A DNA stretch of 64,000 nucleotides from Sporodiniella umbellata. Taxonomy: Eukaryota > Mucoromycota > Mucoromycetes > Mucorales > Rhizopodaceae. A model generated the notes under the pieces. That model was not told where the DNA came from and searched no databases. It saw only the letters and a program-made list of their open reading frames with translations. The position numbers and the translations under genes are program-made. This document shows positions 22,722-64,000 of the stretch, in pieces (position 1 is the first letter of the stretch; each line of letters opens with the position of its first letter). The stretch lies in NCBI GenBank assembly GCA_025677835.1, contig JAIXMR010000040.1, positions 124,001 to 188,000 on the forward strand, written 5' to 3'.

Positions 22722-25700
22722 TTAGATAGCGCTAAATTCTCTTTTAGAGGTTGTTGCTACAGATGAAGAGTTGTTTCCGTCAAGAAACTCAGATGTGTTC
22801 CTTGATTTCCAATCCTGTTGGAGATATGTTAGTGCTGCTCTATTGTAACCCATGATATCTTTTTGGCGTTGTAGCTGTGCACGTAAATGGAAGCGGATAG
22901 AATCAAGCATAGGGCGCATCATTCGGTTAGCCACAATTTGATTATGATGAGATTTAACGATATAAAATAGTACACGGGATACTAGTACAATGCTCCAATT
23001 CTAATTAAGTCTAAATATGGTGTTTTCAAGTTTCAAACTAAAACAAAATAAAACTACCTTTTTGGCCCAGCTTTCAATATAGGAAAACAGCGACATAATT
23101 TTAGAGAACGGTAGCACCATCAATGCCTCTTCTAGATCGTTTGCTCTAATCTTTTGGAGAACGTTAAGTACATATCTATCGGGCTCAAGATCACCCATAG
23201 CTAATAGTATAGGGTTTCGTGCTGGTGGAGGTACGTCTAACCCTTTCGCTTTGCCTGACTCATAAGCCAGCCAACCGTTTTTTTCCTCGTCGCCAATATC
23301 CATGGCTTCCATCAGTCTCTCACCGGCCTTTAATGTTTCCATGGTTTGTTTTCCCGCTGAGTCCACTTCCATCTCGTCACCATTGACATTGGTCTTTTCC
23401 ATTTGGCTGACTAAAGTGGTTTCGTACATGTCTTCTAGTTCTTTTTCACGTTCTTCTTCCAAAAACAGTTGCTCGTCCGTCTTTTCCCATACGCGCAAAG
23501 ATCTATCATGCGATCCTGTAACAATAAACGAGCCCTGTTTAGCTACAGCTAAAGCCCAAATTTCTCCATGATGGCCTTCTAGTTTCATAATGTTTTCAAA
23601 CTAAAAAAAAAAAACAAAAAACAAAGTCAATACTCTATTTTTACACCAACGAGTTTGTATTTACCTTATCGCCATCCCAGTATTTAATGGTCTTATCTTT
23701 ACTGACTGTAAAAAAGTAATGTGTATTCCAAACAAACTGTACAGACATCACACTTTCCTGGTGGGCAAATAAAGATTTGTGACAATCACCAAAGTCAAGA
23801 CCCCATAATTTCACATTTTTGTCGGCTGAGCAAGTAGCAATGAGCATGTTGTCAGACGAAATATCCATAGAGAGCACAGGGAGTTTGTGACCATAAAGGG
23901 AAAGGAAAAATTTAAGAGTATCGTGATAAAAGACTTTGACAGTAGAATCCAGAAGAGATACAGCAATCAAGTTCTGGTTAGGGCTATATCTTACACAAAG
24001 AACTTCATCAGACATTTTGAGAGTTCTCATATGAGAAAAGGTAAGTCGTTTAGCAGTATTGTTTTTGTCTTCGACTACATCAAAGTCCCAGAATTTTACG
24101 TCTTTGTCGGCACTACCAGTTGCAAAACCTCGCTTGTCAGGACGCACTTGTAATGAGTAAACAGCCCCGTCGTGAGCTTTAATTGATTCTAATAATGAGG
24201 AAGACCCAATGTCGTAGAGCTCCAACTCGCCTGTTTTTGTACCCACTATAAGGTGCTTGTTTCCAGGCAAAAATGCACTACAAAGAGCAAAACCACATTC
24301 AATGGTACGGATACACGACTTTGTTTTCAAATTCCATATTTTAAGTAGATTACTAGATGCAGATGCTAACAGCTCATCATCTGAGCTAAGAGCAAGTGTA
24401 CGGATATCGGAACGATGACCAGGGACATCAAGGGAATAGAGTCTGGAAGGCTCGCTTGACTCTTCTGTTTTCTTTTCATGCGAAACTGGTATGCTGTAAG
24501 ACTCTAGTGCATTATTACTCAAAGATGTAACGATTTGAAGTTGCCCTGATTTTTCTATATTCGTTGCTGAAGGAAAGTCAAAACTGCGTACTTTAGCTGG
24601 TGTACGAACGAAGCATTCAGAGGTAAAAACATCTTCGGGTGTTATCTCCTCGCTCACTTCGTTTTCATCCTTTCCCTTCTCTCTAGCTCTTTTCTTTCTA
24701 CGTTGAATCTTTTTGTATACTTGTTCGTGCTCACGCACTCTATAAATCTCCACCGCTTTCTCATTTGCTTGTACACCTACGAATTTTCCTGAAGGATGGA
24801 ACTTAATTGTTACTAAACGATCGCGCGACTGACGGGGAATCGTGCCGTAAGATTGGATTGCTCTTTGCAATGAGGCAGGTGTTGCCTCTCCATCCTTCTC
24901 TACGGTTTTTTGCTGCTCGCCCAGATCTTCAAGAGAAAGGCCTAGAATCTTCCAGTCAATTTTCCAAGCCTTTAAATGTGGTTCCGCGCCACCAGAGATA
25001 ACGACACTTTGGTCATTGGATACTGCAAAAGACCACACTTCAGTTCGGTGCCCTACAAGCGTCTCTCTACAGTACTGTGCAGACAAATCCCAAAGTTTGA
25101 TTAAAGTATCTTTGGAGGATGACAAAAGATACCCTTCGACTGAAGTGCCCACTTCCTTTTCTGCTTCAGTACCTTTGGTCGTCAAAAACTCTAAGCAAGT
25201 GACTTGGTCTTTGTGTCCTTTAAGACGATACAAGCCAGATTCTGAAATAATGTCCCACACAATAAGGTCGGTATCTTTAGATCCTGAAGCAAGTCGTGTT
25301 CCATCGTGATCAAATGCCAATGCTGTTACTGCTGCTCTGTGACCACTTAAAGTTACAGTGGAGGTTGAAGAAGAAATGCTCCAAAGGCGAATGGTACCGT
25401 CATTGTAACTAGAGTTGTTAATTAGATTTGTAGATCTAAAGCTTTTAATTAAATCAATTACCCAACTGCATAGTCTTTCTTATTGGGACTCTTTGCTATA
25501 CTGGTCACTTCAGCTTTATTTCCTGGTTCTTTCCATCTGCCAGCCTGTAAGCGCGTGGTTAAAAAATAAAAAGGATCGTTTTTCGTAGATCGCTTCAAGC
25601 TTTGCTTTTTTTTTTTTTTTTTTTTACCTCACTGCCTTTTTTAAGATCCCAAAGAATGACTTCTTCAAGGGCAGGCGTAACAGCAACCTTTCCACTTTGG

Positions 25701-47942: not shown

Positions 47943-50255
47943 TTAAGCTGTTGGCTCAAAGAGATGACTCAGCATGGCGTTTATTGTCTCTTTATCATAT
48001 TTAATATATTTTGATTGATTTTTAGAGAATTCTACTTTCTTATATTTGTCCAGAAATCTCCCGTACATAGGAACCAAAACGTTCTTCGCGTCTCTTCTAA
48101 CTTGGTTTCTTAGTTCAGGATCTGGGATAGCATAGGATTGCTGTGCTCTAGCCATTTCTTCAAATTCTGTGTTGAAATTCTAAAATATTGTTAAGCATGT
48201 CTTTTTTTCTAAAAAAAGAACGGCTTACTCTAAATTTATCTTTGATGGATTGTTTATCGTTATTGCCCATGGGGCTTTTAATGGCCCCACCTCTTACATA
48301 AGTGACATCCATCAAATTTTCAACACAAGGTTTCCACGAATCTTGATAAGCGTCGAGCTGTTTTTTGACTAACTTACTAAACTTCATTTCAGACCCCTCA
48401 TCAAATATAGCATTCAATGGAGGAGATCGGATTTGCCGCAAGATATGGTTATAGTTGTTCAAAAGAAATAAAGTTGTAAGTGTTGGCTTTCTATATCCTC
48501 GGGATTTGAGTTGTAAAGTAGTATCTAGCTGCTCAAGGGCATCTACAAAAAATTTCTGTAACAGGGTAGCACCTGCGGTTTGATTGCTCGCTAAAGATTT
48601 GCTTGTGTTTGCAAGTGCTTCATATGATGGCATTGTATTCCATCCTCCATCTCCAACAACAGCCAAAAGGGTTTCCACTGTCTCACCATATAAGAACAGT
48701 CTTTTGAAATAGTTTAGTGTCTATTAGCATGTCAATATGTAATCGATTGCAATACGGCGACAAGTATACTACTTACATTACTAGTCATTTCATGCACAGT
48801 CCCGTCGGCACTTAAATTCATTGGAGTGTTGACATCTTTTCGGCCCCGAATATCCTCCATAAAATCATAAAAGTTTCTAAGTGCAGTCAACTTAAATGCG
48901 TTGACCATCTCTTGAACTTCATTTAAGGAAATGGACTGCAAAATCCCTTCAAGATACCGAAAACACTCTCGATCATACTTTTCAACAATATCGAAAACGA
49001 ATGATGTATCTGTATAACTCAATCGCTTGGCGATGGTATTTAACTGTTTCCCTGCTGTTACATACTCTGTTGTCGCTAGTACAATAGACCCTCTAATAGC
49101 ATCAAATCTTCTATTTTCGTTGCTCATTACCTGTTGAGCAAAACTGTATTCTGAACCCATCATTTTGGTGTAACACTCAGTATACTTCAAGAACTCACTA
49201 GACCCTTTTTTATAAGAGGCACCTTGGTGTTTGTCAGACTGTTGAACTGATTGAGACAATGGATGTAGAGATTTCTGCAAGAACGAAGAGCGGATCTCAA
49301 TATATGGTTTAGTGAAATCGACAGAATAGCCCGTATGAGCCTCTGACGAAGCAATGTAGGTAGAAAGCTGAGAAAGCTGCTTTACTGACGCTGTTGTCAT
49401 TAACTCACTATCTGCAATGAAGTTTTGAGGAAAAATACTTATTGTAGGAACATATTCTTACTAAAGTTGTACATTGTGTTAATATCTACGGGGTTGCTGA
49501 CTGTTGAAAGCCACTTTCTAAACAAATTTTCCAAGTGAAGCATACCTGCTTTCAGTAGTTGTTTCTAGGGTGATTCAAGTGGCGATAAAGTAGTGTTAAA
49601 TAGGTTTTGCAACAATCACTTCATCTATTACCATTTGATATGTAGTTTTTTCACATCCTCTTAGTTGAAAATTTTCAAGGACATCAACACCATCCTTAAG
49701 TCTACCCATTGCTTTTAAATAGGGCATTACATCATTTTCATTAGGCCTTTCAAATAAAAAGCGAATTAAAAATTGATGAGAATTGCTAAAGCGTACCCTT
49801 TTAAAATGTACTCTTCCTCTATACTTGGCATGTTCAAGCATTCTACAATGTGACCAGTTTCCTTTAGTGTTTTGTTTATATCTAGTATCAAACATTCTGT
49901 TAATTATTTTGATTTTATAAGAGTATAGCCTCATTTACTATTTGCCAGCTTTGTTAAATTTTGTGTTGAACTGTGAATGGGAAGTATAGACTCTTCAAGT
50001 TTTGAAAGTCTGTGATCAAACGAATTCAGAACCGTTTCCTAAAGACGTTCAAAGAAAAAAAAAAGTTACAAGCTGTTTGAAACCTCAAATTGTTACCAAT
50101 TTATTTGATAACCCATTCATTCTACCAAGTTGCTTTTGAAGAGCATCTAGCTCGGCAGAGTCCGAATTTCCTTTTTTCACTATATTACTAACAAAAAAAT
50201 GAACTATAAGAAATGTAATAGAAAAACAGCGTTATCTATAAACAAACCTTCTCAT
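47943..50255 (-). CDS. EXO70: Exocyst complex subunit Exo70
   Basis: Nine exons (50248-50255, 50097-50187, 49939-50038, 49797-49896, 49632-49746, 49462-49564, 48777-49411, 48229-48720, 47943-48179) encode 626 residues, the usual Exo70 length. The N-terminal coiled coil (residues about 1-100, e.g. DALQKQLGRMNGLSNKLETV) leads into a helical rod. Family blocks include GPNENDVMPYLKAMGRLKDG, KAGMLHLENLFRKWLSTVS, TLTTLFLLNNYNHILRQI and DPELRNQVRRDAKNVLVPMY. The C-terminal basic patch region that binds PI(4,5)P2 is present (RFLDKYKKVEFSK). Exocyst tethers secretory vesicles at growth sites such as hyphal tips. It shares a 139-bp divergent promoter with the HPS1-like gene. Confidence 0.93.
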
Positions 50256-50394
50256 ATTCACTTGGAAAGAAGAAGGGAATATATTGCAAATTCAGACGCC
50301 GTTGATATCTGACACTCCTTTTTTTCCTGTTTCATTTCTTAACCTTATCTATTTTCTATCGCTTTGCCCCTTTTTTTTAAACTTTGATTAGTGA

Positions 50395-52713
50395 ATGATT
50401 ATATATTTCATAATCAACAAATTAGGAGCTGTTGTATATCAATCTTGCACTGTTTCAAATGCAGCTCCTACAGAGGGTCATAGAATTCGCCATCTTCCAT
50501 TACTTGTCATTAACGATCTCATTAAAGCCAACTTTCATGACACCATTCAGTATATAAAGTTAGGAAATAAGAGCGTTGCATTTAAAGAGGTAACAGTGTG
50601 TTTTCTAAAACATAGTTTACTTAATAGGTTTCTTCTGATAGCAACAAAACTTAGTATATGTAGCCTGTACGAAAAGGAGCATCCCAATTGACATTCTACA
50701 GCATCACTTAATCCTGATGCATTCATTTTTAAAGTTTCACTTTGGACCTCACTGGACCTTGCACCTTTATGAAACAAGGCGAAAAACGAATATCACACAA
50801 AAAGATATCAGTATCTGCCTGTCACAACTACCGTTTTTGTGTGGTAATTTGCCACTCAGATCAAGCGACACACTATGCACTTTAGAGCAAATCCAAGCAG
50901 GGGAAGATTTGCAAGAAAAACTGTCTGAAAGTATGATGGAGTGTTGTAACTCTAACTTTACTTGGTCTCTTGGCCGTTATGGGAATCATCCAAGCAATAC
51001 AATAGATAATAAGAAAATGGTGTCATTCTTCAGCCCTAGAGGCAACCATCTATTTTCCAATGAGTCTAGTATATTGTCGACATGGGCACATTGTTTTCTT
51101 TTTGCTAGAGAAAAGATAGTATCTCACTGCTCAAACATTAACCTAACCAAGGATGAGCTACCTGATCAATTTGTGTATTTTTTAAAACTATTAGTCTCAC
51201 ACTATTCTAAAGAAAGATGTATGTCATTATATTGAGACGGGTATCGTTTTTGAGTATCTCATTTTTTTTTTTTTACATCTACAGCGCAATATAAGAATAG
51301 ATTCAAAACAACATATGTTACTTTGTTAGATTCAAATGACTGTAGTAACGCTCTACCAAAAAACATATCAAACAAGTAGGTTGTTATATTAGATGCTAAA
51401 AAAAAAACTTATGTATATTGCCATAGTACAACAATAAATAGTAGCGTGAGCAGTACAAGTAGCCAAAGCTTTATATCATATAGTTCTGCTGCTAGCCCTA
51501 GTCATCATCTATCATCGTCGCTGGCATATGTTTATAATACATCATCATCACCTTTTAAAATCAGAGAGAAAACATCATCATCCGTTACTGTTGTATCATC
51601 TGACTCATCTGCTCCTTATTGGTGTCCACCCCTCACAGAAAAAACTACAGCTCCATTATCAAAGCTAACAACTACAACAGATACCAGTGAGTTTCGACCG
51701 CCTTCGAATGCCATATCGCTAAATCCGTCATACCCAGACAATGCGCCTACAATATACGACATTCTCAACGACAATAACCAAGATTGTCTTCTTTCAGGAA
51801 GCGTCCCTTCAGAATCCAATATATTTCCCGCTTTTGAACAAAAGACAAATCCAAATTCAGCCCCATCATCACCTGTTTTGCGCTCACGTTCTGGCAGCCT
51901 TTCATCCAACACAAACAAATCGGGCGCACTCAAACATTTGCTAACAAACTTGATGAATGGCGAGCCAAGTTATTTAGACCAAACAGATGACGTAAAATTA
52001 GTACGGCGTTGGATCAAGCTAAATGACCATGCTTTTTTGGCCAATATAATTATTATACATGTCTACGAAGGCCTGTGTTCAGTAGTCGTGTGTAAAGACG
52101 ACCCAGAAAAATTATCCAAAACAGCGAATGTGTCGAAGCCCCCTTGGAAACCACTATCTAATCAAGTGAAACAGTTCAAGCTTTCGCTTCGATCTTGTTT
52201 ATCTGATTTTCACTCGTTTTTACTTACTAAAGAATCTACGCATTTCACCAACCTTTCTTTCACCGCAACATATCCTGGCATAGTACACTTCATATACTTT
52301 GAGAAAGGAATCATGATTACACCATCGATTGTTGATTTGAATGAGTTAGACAAAAACCATGAGCTGCTGTATCAAGTAGTATACGACAACAAAACGTCAA
52401 ACACATTGGAAAAGAAAAAATGGATGTGGCCATCAACTGCTCGTCTGAAACAATTGGTAATACAAGCTGGAAAAAAATAACGATTTCTAAACGATATTAG
52501 TGTAACGACATTATACAGTTTAGTACAAATTGTAAAAGATCCTCCAAAGAAAAGTGTATAAAAGAATCAAAAGACTGTGAATATTATCTTATATATGAAA
52601 AGGGGCCTAAAAATCAAGAGCTGCTATCTATATATTTCAACTCAATATCGGCTGATAAGCTTTGGAATATGCATCATAGATTACTGAATGATCTTAGCCA
52701 GCGTAGACTGTAA
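50395..52713 (+). CDS. HPS1-like subunit of BLOC-3 (Rab32/38-type GEF)
   Basis: Five exons (50395-50589, 50642-51218, 51285-51375, 51442-52456, 52519-52713) encode 690 residues, close to human HPS1 (about 700). The first longin-type domain starts at residue 1 (MIIYFIINKLGAVVYQS) and includes LQHHLILMHSFLKFHFGPHW, which parallels the HPS1 block ending in Phe-x-x-HFG. A Ser/Thr-rich, probably disordered middle follows. Near residue 566 is YPGIVHFIYFEKG, like the HPS1 PGLVHFIYVDR block, preceded by a DFHSFLLTKE helix. The last exon (CEYYLIYEKG onward) completes the C-terminal longin fold. HPS1-HPS4 is a guanine exchange factor for Rab32/38 in lysosome-related organelle biogenesis. Ccz1/Mon1 relatives are alternatives, but the blocks fit HPS1 best. 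Confidence 0.72.
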
Positions 52714-53386
52714 AGTAAATAAAACACTTTTTTTGTTCGGTGAGTCACAGATACATAAAAGAGATTGGATGAGAACGTATGCTATTCAATACTATCAACT
52801 ACTCAATATATAAAAAAATCCCCCTGGAAACTATGATAGAATATCTATGCTTATCCGGTCGGGTATTTCTTTTCATTGTTAAACCTTTCTTTATGTAAAT
52901 TGATGAATTTTTACAAAATACTCGGTTTCTTTAAAAAAATTACTAAACATTTAGAATCTTTTTCATATAGAAATTAAACACTGTATTTTCTGAAAAAAAA
53001 AAAAAAAAAAAAAAAAAAAGAAAAAATATCAATAGCAACTAATTAAAACGCTCTATCAGTCCTTTTGATTTACGACAGTTTTAAGTTTTCAATTTTTTTT
53101 TATTTTCTAGCCAGTTCCTGGTTTAGAAGTACGTTTTCAATCTTTTTTTTTATAAAGTCCTACACTAAACTTTGTTTTTAGATTGTGATATGAAAATATA
53201 AAATAGTAAAAGCTGCAACAGTTTTTAGCCTATACAAGAATTGTATAAACTCAACAAAGGCTTGAAAATCAAAATACGTAAATGAAAGTGAAAAGTATGA
53301 AACTATAGTTTTATAAGTTTATTAGAAGCGGGGTTTTTGTTTCAACAGAGGATTAGAAGAGCTGTCAAATTTACAATTGCCAAGGC
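52714..53386. other. AT-rich spacer
   Basis: No gene seen; includes a long poly(A) run at about 52993-53019. It marks the transition from housekeeping genes to the repeat-rich end. Confidence 0.6.
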
Positions 53387-53800
53387 TTATTTATTCGAAA
53401 TATACCAGCTGACAGGTCCATACACAATTTTATCCAAAAGCCTAACATTTTTTTCTCGGACGTATTCGCTTACTTTTTCTTTTACCAACTCGCTTTCTGT
53501 TGGTATAAAAAGTATAACGTTTTTTTTTCTGATAGATTGTGTCTCTATCATAGATATTGAAACATATTCTTTTATAACGAATTCGAGGTAGTTACCATCA
53601 ACTACCTTCATTCTTTCATCGTAAACGTCATCTTCATCCATGTCCTCGTCGCCAGCTATAATTTCTTCCAAATCGTTTTTCTCATCTTGGCTTAAATTTT
53701 CAAAAAAGATCTCCTTAATTGCCTTTATAATGGTTTTGTTTGCTTTGTCAAATAATATAGCTTCATTTATATAATCTTTGTTGATAGGCATTATTTTCAT
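53387..53800 (-). CDS. Hypothetical protein, 137 residues
   Basis: A single open frame starting MKIMPINKDYINEA. It has an acidic patch (IIAGDEDMDEDDVYDERM) and a basic-hydrophobic C-terminal half, with no signal peptide, Cys cluster or membrane segment. I recognise no family. Its Lys/Ile/Asn-rich composition follows the local AT content. It sits between the last housekeeping gene and the tandem array, so it may be a lineage-specific gene or a fragment of a larger one. Existence as a gene is uncertain. Confidence 0.4.
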   Translation of the reverse strand: MKIMPINKDYINEAILFDKANKTIIKAIKEIFFENLSQDEKNDLEEIIAGDEDMDEDDVYDERMKVVDGNYLEFVIKEYVSISMIETQSIRKKNVILFIPTESELVKEKVSEYVREKNVRLLDKIVYGPVSWYISNK

Positions 53801-54015
53801 CGTTTGCTTTTTATTTGTCTGTATAGTGGTTGTAACTTGTTTTACGAATACAGTAGTTCCAGTCTAAATTAAATGCTTTTTAAAAAGCAATTTTTATCTG
53901 CACATTTTTAGGAAGTGACTGCAGAAAGAGATACTTAACAGGGAAGTAAATTGAAAGTCGTTTTACATTATGATAGTTATTTTTTCTTCTTTGACCCTAT
54001 ATATTATTTAAACTA

Positions 54016-54142
54016 AAAGAAAAATACGTGTAAATTGCCAAAATTGACACCGTGCTTTTTTTATTGTTCTTTTTAGAAAAAAAAATATATAAAAGAAAAA
54101 TAGGCGTAAATTGCCAGAACTTACAACGTGCCCTTTTAATTG
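54016..54142 (+). repeat. Two imperfect direct repeats with GTAAATTGCC core
   Basis: Blocks of about 50 bp with cores at 54030-54039 and 54106-54115 (76 bp apart) share the surrounding AAAAGAAAAATA...GTAAATTGCC...CGTGC pattern. The core recurs at 56419-56428 and its counterpart in the second unit. Confidence 0.55.
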
Positions 54143-54409
54143 TATGTCTTTGAAGGGAAAAAATTATCGAAATACACCTCCTGTAAGAGTTGTGTCTTCA
54201 AACAGGGAAAGGGAAGAGCCGGAAAGGTTCAGGTTTGGATCGACACAACTTTGGAAGGGAGAAGTGCTGCGTCAAGGACTTGTAGTGGAACCTCGGGACA
54301 ATAGAGCTTACAGACGAAGCGGATCTGCAAGAGCGAGGCAAAAGATTAAATAAAAGAAACAGAAAAGACGGACAGTCCAAGAGGGAACACTTTGAATAGT
54401 AAAAGAATA

Positions 54410-54581
54410 TGTAATCGTTTGCTCCTGTTTATTGAATGAATTGACAAAGACTATTTATACTCTTTGTTGAAGTAAGAGAATGTTCAATCAAATTAAATAT
54501 CTGATATGGAATACAGTAATAGAGTAATGCAATAGATATTGGACAGTGATAATAAAAGGATGTTAGTCCCAAGTCATTACA
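54410..54581 (-). repeat. LTR-like element (172 bp), copy 1
   Basis: Bounded by TGTAAT and ATTACA, the canonical TG...CA inverted ends of LTRs. On the minus strand it has a TATA box (GAGTATAAATAG), then AATAAA about 25 nt later near the 3' end, as in a U3-R-U5 layout. A purine-rich stretch (AGTAGTGGAGG) lies directly upstream of its minus-strand start, like a polypurine tract. No target-site duplication is visible and no gag-pol frame adjoins, so it is a solo or decayed LTR. Confidence 0.55.
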
Positions 54582-55900
54582 CCTCCACTACTGAAAGAAT
54601 AGATGGAAAGAGATATTTCGAAATAATTCGAACTTTATGATGGATTTAAAATAACCATCTAAAAAGAAAAAAGAAGCAGATATGAATTATAATATATTTA
54701 TGAAAATATAGATTCGTTTGCATTAAAGAATCTTATTTACACTAAACAATTATATTTTAGTAATGTGTTCAAAGAATATAAATGTCGTGTTCCGACTCAT
54801 CTTTGAATACACTTTGGGTAATTTATACGAAGAAATAATGAGTTATATAAGAAGGTCTTACATCTTGAAGTGCACGTCAAGTATGGAAGCAATCTCCTAT
54901 ATTCTCTAATCGGTCGTAACTACATGTATCACTTACCTAAACTAGTCAACAACCCATGATAGACGTCTTAATTTTATTATGATAAAGGATGGATTTTGAT
55001 TTAAGTAAACTCGCCCGAGGTCGGAAATTGAATATGGAATAGAAAATTTACGGTATTGTTTTCGAGTCGGATAGTTCTGAAAGAAAACCACACGTCACAA
55101 GAGAAGATGAAGGAGAGCCATGAGATCATGAAGAATACAGGCCGATATTTAAATAGTTGTGGCGTATTATGATAGATATGGTTCGTCCTGAATGGTGTCT
55201 GATTGTACGTGTGTACAAGATTTCAAAAATAACTGACCTACTGTTCACTACGCCGTTGTGTTCTTTCCTCTTGTCACCGTCTCAATTGAAATACTCAAAT
55301 CGTTTCCCAGTTATTACCACCTCTCGTTTTTAATTTACATCAACGACATCTGGACAAATATCGGAAAAGTGTATAAAAGACAGATCTCGAAGAGTGAAAA
55401 TAAAGACATCGAACTTTTTACCTATTCTTAATATATTTTGAAGAAAAGTCATACCCTTATATTTGACAACTCTTCATTAAATATAACTTCTTTACTCTTA
55501 CTACTCTCAAATTATTGTTGTGTTTTTCTGGTTCCAGTTGTTCGAAGTAGGTTTCTTCAGTCGGCCTTAGTACTCGTTCGAACTGAAGTGAATTAACATC
55601 AATAATTTAGACAAACCGCTGGTATTTATTGAGCTATAATTGAACTCCCTCAATTTAAATTACCAACCCCACCGTACACTTATCAATTAAAATTAAATTG
55701 ATTATCGCTACAGGATGTAGATAATATCCCATCAAAAATATAATGCTGCCTTCTTTCTAATATATTTCTATATAGCGTCATTATCATCTCTCTTTATATT
55801 TATAGATTATTTGGCAACACAATTAGAGTACTTTTTAGATGATTTTCTATATAAATTTGCGCATTTTTTTTTTAGAAAAAAACTCTTTCTTTACATAAAT
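54582..55900. other. Non-coding part of the macro-repeat
   Basis: No open frame. A TATAAAAG (55372-55379) followed by AATAAA (55399-55404) on the plus strand resembles a second, unrelated LTR-type promoter/polyA pair, but no ends could be defined. Confidence 0.45.
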
Positions 55901-56338
55901 ATGTTTAAAGATACCAATATGTTTTACAAACGCTTTCAATGGGATAATTAAAAATCTATTTTGTTTTTAATCGAAAACGAATTAATTCTAAGACCAGAGT
56001 GTGAAAGCTGTCATTTCCTCACGAGATTGAGTAAAAAGAACAAGGAGGGAGACTATCGTTATAGATGCTACCCCTGTAATAAAACCAGAGGGTTTTATAC
56101 TTTGTCACATTTTACCAAATCAAAAATGAAACCGTTTACAATCTTGGAACTACTTTTTTTCTGGTCCTATGGTATGAAAAACAAACTATTGATATAGAAA
56201 TATAAACACAAAATAGAATATAGACCTAGTGAGGTTCACAGGCAAAATTCAGTATCAGTTGCTAACGCCTCTATTTTCTACAAAAAGATTAGAGAAATCA
56301 TTACAGAGTACTATTTTAAAAAACATCCTTTTATTTAA
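55901..56338 (+). pseudogene. Transposase N-terminal remnant (Merlin/ISXO2-like zinc ribbon)
   Basis: One reading frame runs from the ATG at 55901 to TAA at 56336-56338, broken by an in-frame TAA and TAG. It contains a zinc ribbon (RPECESC ... YRCYPCNKTRGFYTLSHFT), then LELLFFWSYGM and a helical SVSVANASIFYKKIREIITE block. The order of zinc ribbon, a skl/tf-type motif, a W-containing helix and a helix-turn-helix-like part is that of ISXO2/IS1016 (Merlin) transposase N termini. The DDE catalytic part is absent. The same stops are present in the second unit. Confidence 0.5.
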
Positions 56339-56947
56339 AAAACCACTCTTTAGTGTCGCGCTGACTGTACTGTGCTTCCATTCTCAGTATACCAGATACT
56401 TTTGATACTTGTGTCAGGGTAAATTGCCCAGAAAAAGGGCAGACTTGGTCACATGTTTGAAGCTAATTAGCCCAGCTGCTTGAAAATCAATTACCCCGTA
56501 GTTTGATCAGCTTCTTGTCAAAATGATTCCATCTAGGCTAAATTCGATACGACTCTACATATAAAGCTTAGAAACGGATTTTACATTTATTTGAAGAAGG
56601 CATGGGAGCAATGACAAGTACATATTTAATTATTGTTATGATGAGGGAAAAGGCCTAAGATACACAAAGTTGTATTACACTAATTTTTTTCGATTTTGAG
56701 TTGTTGTTGCATAACAATGATATTGCTTTTGAACAGCTCAGAAGGGGTATTTATCTCTCTCTCTCTCTCTCTCTCTCCCGTCTACATTGTTTATTTTTTA
56801 TCAACAAAAAAATTCTTGAAAGATAGAGTGGATCTTTATGATGATATAGGGGTGTGGCAATAATTGACAAAAGCTTTATAGAGGTACTATCAATTGCTAG
56901 CCTTTACTTTTTGTTTTTTTATAAGAAAAAAAAAAGAAAACGAATTC
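56339..56947. other. Non-coding part of the macro-repeat, TC microsatellite
   Basis: Holds a GTAAATTGCC core (56419-56428) and a (TC)n run (about 56754-56777). A poly(A)-interrupted frame at 56854-57084 is a shadow of the gene on the other strand. Confidence 0.5.
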
Positions 56948-58638
56948 TTAATGGTTTGACTTTAATTTTTTTTGTACTGTTTCGCTTGATGACGATGTTG
57001 TTGGCATATTTGGGAGGGGCCTTCTCTCCAAACAGTTATCAAACCATGCAATGTCATTTTCATTGGATTTGTTTTTGGACGTAACGATTTCAAACACTTC
57101 CTTGACAATTTCGGAGCACACCCAGGTAGAAAGAATGACTGGTAAGACAGTAGGTCCAAACTGATCCACAAAGCTGCTAATCACCAACGTCTTGCACCTT
57201 GAAACACGCGAAATGTACTTGGTGGGTCTGTCCAACTCAATCAGCGTGCTTGACAAGCCAGAATGAATAAACCCAACAGTGCGAATCGCCTCTGAACGAT
57301 GATCGAAGTTGATCTCCTTGAGTAAAGAGTCCAACATGTCTTTCAGTATACGTGGTAACTTGTAGAAGCCTTCATTCATAAAATTTGTACCAGATTCATC
57401 CTCAATCTTTGACTTGGCTTCACTAGCACCAAACTCCAAAGGGACAGTATGCTGGTTGTTGAATTGTCTAAAAATTAAGTCGCACTTGTGACCATACTTG
57501 GATCGACTGATTTTTGAAATGGATCCAATGGTTCTTGTGTCATTCTTCCTTTTCTTAGTCCCTAGACAAGCAGACTCACCACCGACAGCCTCAATATGCT
57601 CTAATTTATCAAAACAAGATTCGATCATTGACCAAATGTGGGTTTGATACCATCGTTCGTTATGAGGCCTATTCATACTACCATTTTCGTATTCTCGAAC
57701 CAGGGAAAAGATAACAAAAGTGATCCAGTCCTTATCAGCGCTTTCTTCTTTGTTGTAGTCAGAGTGAAAAGTGTGATTATTTCCTAAAGCAGTTCGAAGC
57801 TTAGCTGTGCTGTCTTGGTTGTATTGATTTAAAAAATTTTTCAAAGAATCTGGAGGTTTTGGAAAGCTTTTCTTTTTATGGTTTATGATTTCTTGGAGTT
57901 CCTCTTCAGTAAATACATTGTAAGAGATGTAGTTCTTGTCGTATGGGTCAATAATCAATGATCGGCTCGGATGGTCAGACTCACACTGCAAACCAAACAT
58001 AAAAAGCTCATCATCCACACATTTACCAGTTGAAAGATACCATTTGCTGTTTTGATTTAATTTTTTAAACATGTCTTCAAATGGAACGTTATGTTCATCA
58101 ACTGTATCATTTGTAGGTTCAATCGTATCTTCTTCAAAAGCATCGATACCCTCTCTTGTATTGTTTATATTATAATCTTCATGACTAATACTATTTTCTT
58201 GATTTTTATCAGCCTGATTAATTGTTTCAAAATCAGCCTCAATCAATTTAATTTCATCCTCAATTAGCTTGTTTTTAACGGTCAAGGAAAGGTATTTCTT
58301 ATTTATTATAAGCTTCTGCCTGGTCTTCAAGTAAAAAAACTGTCTCACCAACGTAGTATCTAGCAGCTAAACATAATTTTAATAATTAATACAAGCTTTA
58401 GAAAAAAAAATACTCGTACTTCTCTTGGTTTCTTTTGGTGCTTCCTGGCCCACAAAATAACCTCTCTCTTTGTATTGTGTTTCAAATTCAAGCTACCAAT
58501 ACTGATCAAAGCTCCTTCAAGTGCACGTAAGCAAGAGGACCAATCTTCACACTTCGAATTCTTAGCAAAGGCAAGCGCTTGGAACGTTGCATCTGGTTTC
58601 CAGTTGTTTAGAATCCATTCTGTATGTGAAGCTTCCAT
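56948..58638 (-). CDS. Unknown 545-residue protein of the tandem array, possible PD-(D/E)XK-like core
   Basis: Two exons (58420-58638 and 56948-58366) joined at a GTACGA donor. The N terminus is MEASHTEWILNNWKPDATFQ. Residues about 78-170 are Lys/Glu/Asn-rich; the C-terminal half is globular. A stretch near 367-391 reads KCDLIFRQFN ... VPLEFGASEAK: an Asp, then Glu-x4-Glu-x-Lys, which resembles the D...ExK core of restriction-like nucleases. A similar layout is, in my recollection, common in expanded protein families of Mucoromycota, but I cannot confirm a family. The frame is intact and identical, where visible, in copy 2, so it is under use or very recent. Four TATA-bearing 325-bp repeats lie upstream. 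No signal peptide. Confidence 0.7.
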
Positions 58639-58780
58639 TTTTTAAGAAGAAAAGAGTGAAAATGTCAGACACTTAGAGGACTTCAAATAAATTAAAAAAT
58701 GCTATTCGTGACAAATTTTTTTTCTGACATCATATTTCTTACTCAACTTTTATTTTTTATTTTTTTTGTAAGCATTAAAC
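58639..58780. other. 5' UTR/leader region of the tandem-array gene
   Basis: Between the start codon (58638) and the first 325-bp repeat; it ends with a 36-bp partial repeat copy (58745-58780). Confidence 0.5.
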
Positions 58781-59105
58781 CTCAACAAGATGAGAATAAC
58801 TACCAGCTGTTCCAGTGCATAGCGACCTGGAAACATTCTTTTGGGAGTGTTTTAAACGAAGGCTCGAAACGGTCTCCTTTGGGTGATTCCTAAGGAAGAC
58901 CACTTCGTTTTGACAGGGCCTTTTATACACAGTAAAGGGGTTGGTTACGCTTCTCACATACAACGTGGTGTATCTTAGGCACGGTAGCTTATTACTTGTC
59001 TTGTTATTCACTTACTCTTTGGAAAAACTAAGGTAATTTGCATTTTTTGCAATGGGACAAAGCTAATTTACTTTTTATTTTTTATTTTTTTTGTAAGCAT
59101 TAAAC
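58781..59105 (-). repeat. 325-bp promoter-type repeat, unit 1
   Basis: First of four direct repeats. On the minus strand it contains TATAAAAG (from CCTTTTATACACAG on plus, near 58920), aimed at the gene starting at 58638. It also has a TTGC-T6-GCAA inverted repeat. Confidence 0.9.
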
Positions 59106-59430
59106 CTCAACAAGATGAGAATAACTACCAGCTGTTCCAGTGCATAGCGACCTGGAAACATTCTTTTGGGAGTGTTTTAAACGAAGGCTCGAAACGGTCT
59201 CCTTTGGGTGATTCCTAAGGAAGACCACTTCGTTTTGACAGGGCCTTTTATACACAGTAAAGGGGTTGGTTACGCTTCTCACATACAACGTGGTGTATCT
59301 TAGGCACGGTAGCTTATTACTTGTCTTGTTATTCACTTACTCTTTGGAAAAACTAAGGTAATTTGCATTTTTTGCAATGGGACAAAGCTAATTTACTTTT
59401 TATTTTTTATTTTTTTTGTAAGCATTAAAC
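59106..59430 (-). repeat. 325-bp promoter-type repeat, unit 2
   Basis: Second direct copy, apparently identical to unit 1 by inspection, with the same TATA box and inverted repeat. Confidence 0.9.
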
Positions 59431-59755
59431 CTCAACAAGATGAGAATAACTACCAGCTGTTCCAGTGCATAGCGACCTGGAAACATTCTTTTGGGAGTGT
59501 TTTAAACGAAGGCTCGAAACGGTCTCCTTTGGGTGATTCCTAAGGAAGACCACTTCGTTTTGACAGGGCCTTTTATACACAGTAAAGGGGTTGGTTACGC
59601 TTCTCACATACAACGTGGTGTATCTTAGGCACGGTAGCTTATTACTTGTCTTGTTATTCACTTACTCTTTGGAAAAACTAAGGTAATTTGCATTTTTTGC
59701 AATGGGACAAAGCTAATTTACTTTTTATTTTTTATTTTTTTTGTAAGCATTAAAC
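59431..59755 (-). repeat. 325-bp promoter-type repeat, unit 3
   Basis: Third direct copy, apparently identical to its neighbours. Confidence 0.9.
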
Positions 59756-60080
59756 CTCAACAAGATGAGAATAACTACCAGCTGTTCCAGTGCATAGCGA
59801 CCTGGAAACATTCTTTTGGGAGTGTTTTAAACGAAGGCTCGAAACGGTCTCCTTTGGGTGATTCCTAAGGAAGACCACTTCGTTTTGACAGGGCCTTTTA
59901 TACACAGTAAAGGGGTTGGTTACGCTTCTCACATACAACGTGGTGTATCTTAGGCACGGTAGCTTATTACTTGTCTTGTTATTCACTTACTCTTTGGAAA
60001 AACTAAGGTAATTTGCATTTTTTGCAATGGGACAAAGCTAATTTACTTTTTATTTTTTATTTTTTTTGTAAGCATTAAAC
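59756..60080 (-). repeat. 325-bp promoter-type repeat, unit 4
   Basis: Fourth direct copy. Its last base borders directly on the first base of the second macro-repeat unit. Confidence 0.9.
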
Positions 60081-60308
60081 TGTAAGAGTTGTGTCTTCAA
60101 ACAGGGAAAGGGAAGAGCCGGAAAGGTTCAGGTTTGGATCGACACAACTTTGGAAGGGAGAAGTGCTGCGTCAAGGACTTGTAGTGGAACCTCGGGACAA
60201 TAGAGCTTACAGACGAAGCGGATCTGCAAGAGCGAGGCAAAAGATTAAATAAAAGAAACAGAAAAGACGGACAGTCCAAGAGGGAATACTTTGAATAGTA
60301 AAAGAATA

Positions 60309-60480
60309 TGTAATCGTTTGCTCCTGTTTATTGAATGAATTGACAAAGACTATTTATACTCTTTGTTGAAGTAAGAGAATGTTCAATCAAATTAAATATC
60401 TGATATGGAATACAGTAATAGAGTAATGCAATAGATATTGGACAGTGATAATAAAAGGATGTTAGTCCCAAGTCATTACA
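60309..60480 (-). repeat. LTR-like element (172 bp), copy 2
   Basis: Same length, ends, TATA and AATAAA as the element at 54410. It lies in the duplicated unit, so the pair does not flank a retrotransposon body. Confidence 0.55.
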
Positions 60481-61803
60481 CCTCCACTACTGAAAGAATA
60501 GATGGAAAGAGATATTTCGAAATAATTCGAACTTTATGATGGATTTAAAATAACCATCTAAAAAGAAAAAAGAAGCAGATATGAATTATAATATATTTAT
60601 GAAAATATAGATTCGTTTGCATTAAAGAATCTTATTTACACTAAACAATTATATTTTAGTAATGTGTTCAAAGAATATAAATGTCGTGTTCCGACTCATC
60701 TTTGAATACACTTTGGGTAATTTATACGAAGAAATAATGAGTTATATAAGAAGGTCTTACATCTTGAAGTGCACGCCAAGTATGGAAGCAATCTCCCATA
60801 TTTTCTAATCGGTCGTAACTACATGTATCACTTACCTAAACTAGTCAACAACCCATGATAGACGTCTTGATTTTATTATGATAAAGGATGGATTTTGATT
60901 TAAGTAAACTCGCCCGAGGTCGGAAATTGAATATGGAATAGAAAATTTACGGTATTGTTTTCGAGTCGGATAGTTCTGAAAGAAAACCACACGTCACAAG
61001 AGAAGATGAAGGAGAGCCATGAGATCATGAAGAATACAGGCCGATATTTAAATAGTTGTGGCGTATTATGATAGATATGGTTCGTCCTGAATGGTGTCTG
61101 ATTGTACGTGTGTACAAGATTTCAAAAATAACTGACCTACTGTTCACTACGCCGTTGTGTTCTTTCCTCTTGTCACCGTCTCAATTGAAATACTCAAATC
61201 GTTTCCCAGTTATTACCACCTCTCGTTTTTAATTTACATCAACGACGTCTGGACAAATATCGGAAAAGTGTATAAAAGACAGATCTCGAAGAGTGAAAAT
61301 AAAGACATCGAACTTTTTACCTATTCTTAATATATTTTGAAGAAAAGTCATACCCTTATATTTGACAACTCTTCATTAAATATAGCTTCTTTACTCTTAC
61401 TACTCTCAAATTATTGTTGTGTTTTTCTGGTTCCAGTTGTTCGAAGTAGGTTTCTTCAGTCGGCCTTAGTACTCGTTCGAACTGAAGTGAATTAACATCA
61501 ATAATTTAGACAAACCGCTGGTATTTATTGAGCTATAATTGAACTCCCTCAATTTAAATTACCAACCCCACCGTACACTTATCAATTAAAATTAAATTGA
61601 TTATCGCTACAGGATGTAGATAATATCCCATCAAAAATATAATGCTGCCTTCTTTCTAATATATTTCTATATAGCGTCATTATCATCTCTCTTTATATTT
61701 ATAGATTATTTGGCAACACAATTAAACAGAGTACTTTTTAGATGATTTTCTATATAAATTTGCGCATTTTTTTTTTAGAAAAAAACTCTTTCTTTACATA
61801 AAT

Positions 61804-62241
61804 ATGTTTAAAGATACCAATATGTTTTACAAACGCTTTCAATGGGATAATTAAAAATCTATTTTGTTTTTAATCGAAAACGAATTAATTCTAAGACCAG
61901 AGTGTGAAAGCTGTCATTTCCTCACGAGATTGAGTAAAAAGAACAAGGAGGGAGACTATCGTTATAGATGCTACCCCTGTAATAAAACCAGAGGGTTTTA
62001 TACTTTGTCACATTTTACCAAATCAAAAATGAAACCGTTTACAATCTTGGAACTACTTTTTTTCTGGTCCTATGGTATGAAAAACAAACTATTGATATAG
62101 AAATATAAACACAAAATAGAATATAGACCTAGTGAGGTTCACAGGCAAAATTCAGTATCAGTTGCTAACGCCTCTATTTTCTACAAAAAGATTAGAGAAA
62201 TCATTACAGAGTACTATTTTAAAAAACATCCTTTTATTTAA
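61804..62241 (+). pseudogene. Transposase N-terminal remnant, copy 2
   Basis: Same frame, zinc ribbon and the same two internal stops as at 55901. The shared decay shows that the element died before the duplication. Confidence 0.5.
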
Positions 62242-62849
62242 AAAACCACTCTTTAGTGTCGCGCTGACTGTACTGTGCTTCCATTCTCAGTATACCAGAT
62301 ACTTTTGATACTTGTGTCAGGGTAAATTGCCCAGAAAAAGGGCAGACTTGGTCACATGTTTGAAGCTAATTAGCCCAGCTGCTTGAAAATCAATTACCCC
62401 GTAGTTTGATCAGCTTCTTGTCAAAATGATTCCATCTAGGCTAAATTCGATACGACTCTACATATAAAGCTTAGAAACGGATTTTACATTTATTTGAAGA
62501 AGGCATGGGAGCAATGACAAGTACATATTTAATTATTGTTATGATGAGGGAAAAGGCCTAAGATACACAAAGTTGTATTACACTAATTTTTTTCGATTTT
62601 GAGTTGTTGTTGCATAACAATGATATTGCTTTTGAACAGCTCAGAAGGGGTATTTATCTCTCTCTCTCTCTCTCTCTCTCCCGTCTACATTGTTTATTTT
62701 TTATCAACAAAAAATTCTTGAAAGATAGAGTGGATCTTTATGATGATATAGGGGTGTGGCAATAATTGACAAAAGCTTTATAGAGGTACTATCAATTGCT
62801 AGCCTTTACTTTTTGTTTTTTTATAAGAAAAAAAAAAGAAAACGAATTC

Positions 62850-64000
62850 TTAATGGTTTGACTTTAATTTTTTTTGTACTGTTTCGCTTGATGACGATGT
62901 TGTTGGCATATTTGGGAGGGGCCTTCTCTCCAAACAGTTATCAAACCATGCAATGTCATTTTCATTGGATTTGTTTTTGGACGTAACGATTTCAAACACT
63001 TCCTTGACAATTTCGGAGCACACCCAGGTAGAAAGAATGACTGGTAAGACAGTAGGTCCAAACTGATCCACAAAGCTGCTAATCACCAACGTCTTGCACC
63101 TTGAAACACGCGAAATGTACTTGGTGGGTCTGTCCAACTCAATCAGCGTGCTTGACAAGCCAGAATGAATAAACCCAACAGTGCGAATCGCCTCTGAACG
63201 ATGATCGAAGTTGATCTCCTTGAGTAAAGAGTCCAACATGTCTTTCAGTATACGTGGTAACTTGTAGAAGCCTTCATTCATAAAATTTGTACCAGATTCA
63301 TCCTCAATCTTTGACTTGGCTTCACTAGCACCAAACTCCAAAGGGACAGTATGCTGGTTGTTGAATTGTCTAAAAATTAAGTCGCACTTGTGACCATACT
63401 TGGATCGACTGATTTTTGAAATGGATCCAATGGTTCTTGTGTCATTCTTCCTTTTCTTAGTCCCTAGACAAGCAGACTCACCACCGACAGCCTCAATATG
63501 CTCTAATTTATCAAAACAAGATTCGATCATTGACCAAATGTGGGTTTGATACCATCGTTCGTTATGAGGCCTATTCATACTACCATTTTCGTATTCTCGA
63601 ACCAGGGAAAAGATAACAAAAGTGATCCAGTCCTTATCAGCGCTTTCTTCTTTGTTGTAGTCAGAGTGAAAAGTGTGATTATTTCCTAAAGCAGTTCGAA
63701 GCTTAGCTGTGCTGTCTTGGTTGTATTGATTTAAAAAATTTTTCAAAGAATCTGGAGGTTTTGGAAAGCTTTTCTTTTTATGGTTTATGATTTCTTGGAG
63801 TTCCTCTTCAGTAAATACATTGTAAGAGATGTAGTTCTTGTCGTATGGGTCAATAATCAATGATCGGCTCGGATGGTCAGACTCACACTGCAAACCAAAC
63901 ATAAAAAGCTCATCATCCACACATTTACCAGTTGAAAGATACCATTTGCTGTTTTGATTTAATTTTTTAAACATGTCTTCAAATGGAACGTTATGTTCAT
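62850..64000 (-). CDS. Unknown tandem-array protein, copy 2 (5' end outside window)
   Basis: Second copy of the gene at 56948-58638. The frame is open from its stop (62850) to the window edge. The visible C-terminal 374 residues, from the MFKKLNQNSKWYL segment on, read the same as in copy 1, including the LEFGASEAK segment. Exon 1 and any upstream 325-bp repeats lie beyond 64000. Confidence 0.7.
   Translation of the reverse strand, partial: EHNVPFEDMFKKLNQNSKWYLSTGKCVDDELFMFGLQCESDHPSRSLIIDPYDKNYISYNVFTEEELQEIINHKKKSFPKPPDSLKNFLNQYNQDSTAKLRTALGNNHTFHSDYNKEESADKDWITFVIFSLVREYENGSMNRPHNERWYQTHIWSMIESCFDKLEHIEAVGGESACLGTKKRKNDTRTIGSISKISRSKYGHKCDLIFRQFNNQHTVPLEFGASEAKSKIEDESGTNFMNEGFYKLPRILKDMLDSLLKEINFDHRSEAIRTVGFIHSGLSSTLIELDRPTKYISRVSRCKTLVISSFVDQFGPTVLPVILSTWVCSEIVKEVFEIVTSKNKSNENDIAWFDNCLERRPLPNMPTTSSSSETVQKKLKSNH

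Follow-up and report, generated by a model that had tools for sequence, protein, structure and literature searches.

A probable, fairly recent tandem duplication that includes a gene and starts at a solo long terminal repeat in Sporodiniella umbellata

We analysed a 64,000-bp stretch of DNA (the window) from the Mucorales fungus Sporodiniella umbellata, positions 124,001 to 188,000 of contig JAIXMR010000040.1 (C134:124001-188000, other contigs being numbered likewise) in assembly GCA_025677835.1; the genome searches covered this 25.95-Mb assembly of 198 contigs. At the right end of the window, a 5899-bp segment carrying one gene (unit 1, 54182-60080) is followed head to tail by a second copy that starts at 60081 (unit 2). 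This tandem segmental duplication is very probably real. On balance, we favour reading it as a fairly recent event bounded by a solo long terminal repeat (LTR) and brought about by recombination between two LTRs or by way of a circle closed at an LTR. The features that bear on this reading are the following, in window coordinates.

54182..60080, no strand: unit 1, 5899 bp, from self-alignment
60081..64000 in the window, no strand: unit 2, incomplete, continuing to the contig end at 64048
60080..60081, no strand: junction, where the array (...ATTAAAC) abuts the LTR 5' end (TGTAAG)
54177..54181, no strand: left target-site duplication CCTCC, held once by the empty-site paralogues C79 and C43
54182..54581, forward strand: solo LTR of unit 1, 400 bp, TGTAAG...TTACA
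54582..54586, no strand: right target-site duplication CCTCC, from flank comparison
54587..54782, no strand: right half of the dispersed repeat that received the LTR, from the matches to C43 (88.2%, 305 columns) and C79 (85.2%, 304 columns)
60081..60480, forward strand: LTR of unit 2, with TAAAC on its left and CCTCC on its right

Self-BLAST of the 64-kb window aligned 54181-58098 with 60080-64000 at 99.694% identity over 3922 columns. Contig C134 stops at window coordinate 64048, 48 bp beyond the window, and truncates unit 2 within the gene, leaving 3968 bp of the expected 5.9 kb. Between 54182-58146 and 60081-64048, we found seven substitutions, all of them transitions (54388, 54877, 54898, 54904, 54970, 55348 and 55486), and two indels, one of 4 bp near 55825 and one of 1 bp in an A-run at 56806. 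About 4 kb of near identity between the units is far beyond chance, and seven substitutions in about 3965 bp point to a fairly recent duplication. The initial annotation of this DNA had described a segment that restarts at 60081 with few differences, at least two units in tandem and, as one of several options, a very recent duplication; the tandem arrangement and a recent duplication are supported by the alignment. It had also proposed counting units in the following contig sequence; with only 48 bp left past the window, the assembly holds about 1.67 units.

The same annotation had allowed for an assembly effect. In such a case, reads from one locus or from two nuclear haplotypes would have been misjoined at the contig end. 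Unit 2 does lie at the very end of the contig, a typical site of errors. To tell which unit had changed, we used other genomic copies of the dispersed repeats found in the unit, and eight of the nine differences could be polarised, all but the 1-bp difference in the A-run: each unit carries four derived states. The unit 2 base at 54388 is present in 20 of the 22 distinct LTR places covering the site (the exceptions being the copies at C171:128162 and on C110), at 54898 in six of eight places (the other two having the unit 1 base) and at 55348 in three of three, while the 4 bp absent from unit 1 occur both in unit 2 and in the C113 relative (1/1). The unit 1 base was found in all eight fetched places at both 54877 and 54904, in the one place covering 54970 and in three of three at 55486. 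These counts exclude three weak LTR rows (C2, C73 and C142), one short row (C154:28892-28954) and two copies of the 54980-55687 repeat (C112:238855 and C45). Because both units carry private mutations, one locus assembled twice is disfavoured; errors at the contig end are disfavoured as well, since they should accumulate in unit 2 and could hardly bring back the states usual in the family, which unit 2 has at 54388, 54898, 55348 and the 4-bp indel. Furthermore, the 8.1-kb left flank has a single full copy in the assembly, with only short repeat matches of 29-78 bp elsewhere, and shows no second haplotype, although this argument does not fully cover collapsed haplotypes. Given the private, polarisable mutations in both units and the single-copy flank, we consider an artefact very unlikely.

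Unit 1 opens with a 400-bp LTR; a genome search with it gave 35 match rows, of which 12 span positions 1-400. Whole-genome match counts given here are lower bounds, as only the best candidates were scored. The LTR of unit 1 lies between two CCTCC, a perfect 5-bp target duplication of the kind present in seven of these 12 copies (unit 1 included). When its flanks were joined via a single CCTCC, they matched C43 at 88.2% over 305 gapless columns and C79 at 85.2% over 304 columns, in both cases through the insertion point, with weaker partial matches across this point at L008, L035/L038, L036, L046 and L054. C43 and C79 are thus paralogous empty sites with CCTCC present once. What the initial annotation had called an LTR-like element can be named a solo LTR: its ends are TG...CA, many copies share its defined length, and it has a short target duplication and an empty site, here represented by two paralogues. 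On the left side of the insertion, a dispersed repeat of about 75 bp at 54071-54150, with 12 other genome matches, ends near the LTR and corresponds to the left part of the repeat that was split.

Two other solo LTRs of the family, C61:37231-37632 (L007) and C172:8923-9324 (L035), are 98.5% identical over 402 columns and occupy different sites with different 5-bp target duplications, so the family has moved fairly recently. A miniature of the LTR was also observed in the C172:76844 region (L058), where its first 69 bp (98.6% identical) are followed by CTTACA, for a total of about 75 bp, with GTTCC on both sides; it appears to be a mobile derivative of very small size that has a target duplication of its own.

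The duplicated segment spans the 5' edge of the LTR to 33 bp into the fifth repeat of a 325-bp array, and the second copy follows directly, starting at the first base of the LTR just after ...GCATTAAAC of the array. The base at both 54181 and 60080 is C, which leaves a one-base ambiguity at the junction. With TAAAC on its left and CCTCC on its right, the LTR of unit 2 has no target duplication. Because the empty sites on C79 and C43 cross the insertion point with a single CCTCC, unit 1 represents the original arrangement and the array-LTR joint the derived one. Both CCTCC in unit 1, TAAAC/CCTCC in unit 2 and the empty sites together give the order of events: the LTR inserted first and the tandem duplication came second.

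These features are most simply explained by unequal recombination involving another LTR within the array, a partner that we infer. One LTR inserted into the dispersed repeat, where it stands solo with its CCTCC target duplication; a further family member, nearly identical to it, would have landed at TAAAC in the array. The segment would then be doubled by unequal (sister-chromatid) recombination between this pair or, by an alternative route, by a circle closed at an LTR that was excised and integrated again. In this account the LTR at 60081 is a recombinant, its left flank coming from the second insertion and its right flank from the first, and the right edge of the unit array would consist of the 325-bp array, an LTR and then TAAACCTCAACAAG, where the array resumes. 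Further crossing over would change the number of copies, and that of the gene along with it. An edge exactly at the LTR end argues for such an event because recombination between two LTRs leaves an edge of this kind, and the genome has at least one near-identical pair at independent sites, on C61 and C172.

Several observations weigh against recombination between LTRs. Neither the second LTR nor the sequence beyond it was found in the assembly, so that of two LTR breakpoints expected, only one is visible. Between units 1 and 2 the LTR differs at a single base out of 400, whereas no other copy over 1-400 exceeds 90% identity. Recombination with an ordinary member of the family should have left a hybrid with more differences than this, unless the crossover lay close to the 5' end, the partner was almost identical or conversion removed them. 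The differing base, a T at LTR position 207 of unit 2 (site 54388), is the usual one of the family (20/22 places) and fits a hybrid, but it equally fits a mutation in unit 1. As five of the 12 copies over 1-400 (those of unit 2, C126, C6, C35 and C195) have no perfect target duplication, its lack in unit 2 is by itself no proof of recombination. A distinctly less likely explanation is a real duplication in which a single shared base (C) was used in end joining or in template switching during replication, the LTR edge having been broken or having stalled replication, and in which no second LTR ever existed. It would account for LTRs that are nearly identical over all 400 bp, as if derived from one LTR, and for the one-base ambiguity of the joint, but an unguided break would rarely hit the exact first base of the LTR within a 6-kb segment, and the joint has no longer shared sequence.

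Compatible with either mechanism, the pair might be the visible edge of a long macrosatellite-like array of many units homogenised by conversion, a possibility raised by the initial annotation that we regard as doubtful. No special feature marks the point within a unit where the contig breaks off, a pattern that assemblers would produce at repeats they fail to resolve, and the 325-bp repeats are identical. On the other hand, about 1.67 units are present, the units are not fully homogenised, with private changes in each, and whole-genome searches with 57000-58747, 58748-59072 and 55690-56960 gave no third unit, and no other contig with unit sequence, near this identity among the best candidates scored. 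The break within unit 2 fits an unresolved longer array and equally a chance read end. The telomere motif TTAGGG, searched as four copies in a row, occurs once in the assembly, inside C129, so contig ends could not be judged as chromosome ends. With the units at hand, a macrosatellite is neither shown nor ruled against.

Beyond the LTR, the unit is composed of the following features.

54783..54961, no strand: dispersed-repeat fragment, aligned with 8 other places
54980..55687, no strand: piece of a different dispersed repeat, with 98% identity to the C14 copy
55897..56319, forward strand: IS1595/Merlin-like transposase remnant, N-terminal part, DDE part absent and frame broken
56948..58366, reverse strand: gene exon 2 with stop codon, from the reading frame and protein matches
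58367..58419, reverse strand: gene intron, 53 nt, GT...AG
58420..58638, reverse strand: gene exon 1 with ATG, P0001 having the same joined N-terminus
58748..60080, no strand: 325-bp tandem array, four identical copies plus 33 bp
62850..64000, reverse strand: gene of unit 2, truncated where the contig stops; its 1199 bp (to 64048) are identical to unit 1

The initial annotation had placed a dead transposase fragment, an intact gene and a promoter-repeat array in the unit. The first is supported by homology to stretches at C113:158437-158818 and C2:358865-358971, which adjoin matches to PF12762 (DDE_Tnp_IS1595) at C113:158113-158388 (27.0 bits, only at the family cut-off and with two stops) and C2:358388-358612 (37.9 bits). 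The unit itself has no PF12762 match; nine were found in the genome, including these two beside unit-like stretches. An SH2 Pfam row for the transposase piece (E 0.0024) was below the curated cut-off and was taken as chance. At C112:237557-239323, pieces of the unit repeats (unit 54782-54961 and 55220-55687) flank another PF12762 transposase match, suggesting that these repeats may be ends of IS1595/Merlin-like elements.

The gene is intact, with two exons encoding 545 amino acids, of which 516 are identical to P0001, an unnamed sequence. Its product matches proteins of Rhizopus, Parasitella, Pilaira and Mucor and, more distantly, of Geosiphon and Gigaspora; the gene belongs to a Mucoromycota family without a Pfam name. 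A weak Pfam row for it, COG5_C (E 0.085), was below the curated cut-off and was taken as chance. The active site of PD-(D/E)XK proteins consists of a D followed by a (D/E)xK motif. In the family alignment of 29 rows, D369 and E384 are each conserved in 25 of the 26 rows with a letter there, but G occurs at 386 in 26 of 26; K415 is invariant (28/28) and lies in the next helix. The product is possibly PD-(D/E)XK-like and may be compared with restriction-endonuclease-like folds such as those of BpuSI and DrdV. The gene has 12 other matches in the genome, and in nine of them the matching region is interrupted by stops, some of which could be explained by introns, ignored by the search; this makes the intact, duplicated gene worth a functional look. 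At C44:39017-42304, two relatives of the gene (41% and 46% identical) are near neighbours that point in opposite directions, the first with two stops in the match. The 1199 bp of gene sequence common to both units show no differences, but none of seven substitutions falling in 1199 of about 3965 bases has a chance of about 0.08 by length alone, and no selection is claimed. Elsewhere in the window, a WDR3-like reading frame (23641-25320) had as its two best named matches proteins of Rhizopus arrhizus (88%) and Rhizopus azygosporus (85%); the protein matches thus indicate a member of the Mucorales close to Rhizopus.

The array of 325-bp repeats, 100% identical to each other by self-BLAST, begins 109 bp upstream of the ATG of the gene, and a whole-genome search with 58748-59072 found the repeat nowhere else in the assembly. 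On the strand of the gene, each repeat contains TATAAA (first bases at 58927, 59252, 59577 and 59902) and could act as a promoter, although the four TATAAA amount to one event copied four times and are not significant by themselves. The array named in the initial annotation stands, while its putative promoter role is suggested by its position upstream of the ATG and by TATAAA. That the array might be an RNA gene or a coding repeat was considered and rejected: an Rfam search of 50000-64000 (E up to 1) gave three weak rows, all within 51133-51585, below gathering scores and none in the unit; ARAGORN predicted no tRNA in the window; and for one minus-strand frame of the repeat (58778-59011), no related protein was found. 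Four 141-nt pieces gave folding z-scores of -0.02, -0.77, -1.87 and -2.13, which are not striking.

A bolder picture, which we consider rather improbable, would be an unstable LTR-bounded array of at least three units, amplifying one gene from an undescribed Mucoromycota family of restriction-endonuclease-like proteins, with a homogenised 325-bp promoter array before each copy and a dose tuned by the number of units and of promoter repeats.

For the yeast gene CUP1, the copy number and its selection by copper are established, which sets it apart from the Mucorales unit. The resemblance to the Saccharomyces cerevisiae CUP1 array lies in the tandemly repeated gene segment (PMC6890164). At GAP1 of S. 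cerevisiae, recombination between flanking Ty1 LTRs, new insertions included, makes tandem duplications (PMC11790251). As in the GAP1 variants, a gene-bearing segment lies here in tandem with a breakpoint at an LTR, and new LTR insertions can supply the partner; however, two LTR breakpoints were inferred there from reads and selection is known, whereas here one LTR edge is assembled, in a Mucorales host (PMC11790251). The wtf loci of Schizosaccharomyces pombe are also alike in being a fungal gene family beside solo LTRs whose tandem number is changed by unequal crossing over, but nothing here points to meiotic drive (PMC11497594). Among the titles and abstract openings listed, none dealt with the locus itself or with a tandem array in Rhizopus that is bounded by LTRs, which does not establish absence.

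The duplication is an ordinary event of a known kind, a copy-number change at an LTR edge, and the locus is a plausible copy-number hotspot. It shows cleanly, in a natural setting and in a fungus of an early-diverging lineage, how a segment with a gene was duplicated from the edge of a solo LTR, and the empty site and the polarity of the mutations can be read from an assembly. For this gene family, copy number may be undercounted where assemblies break.

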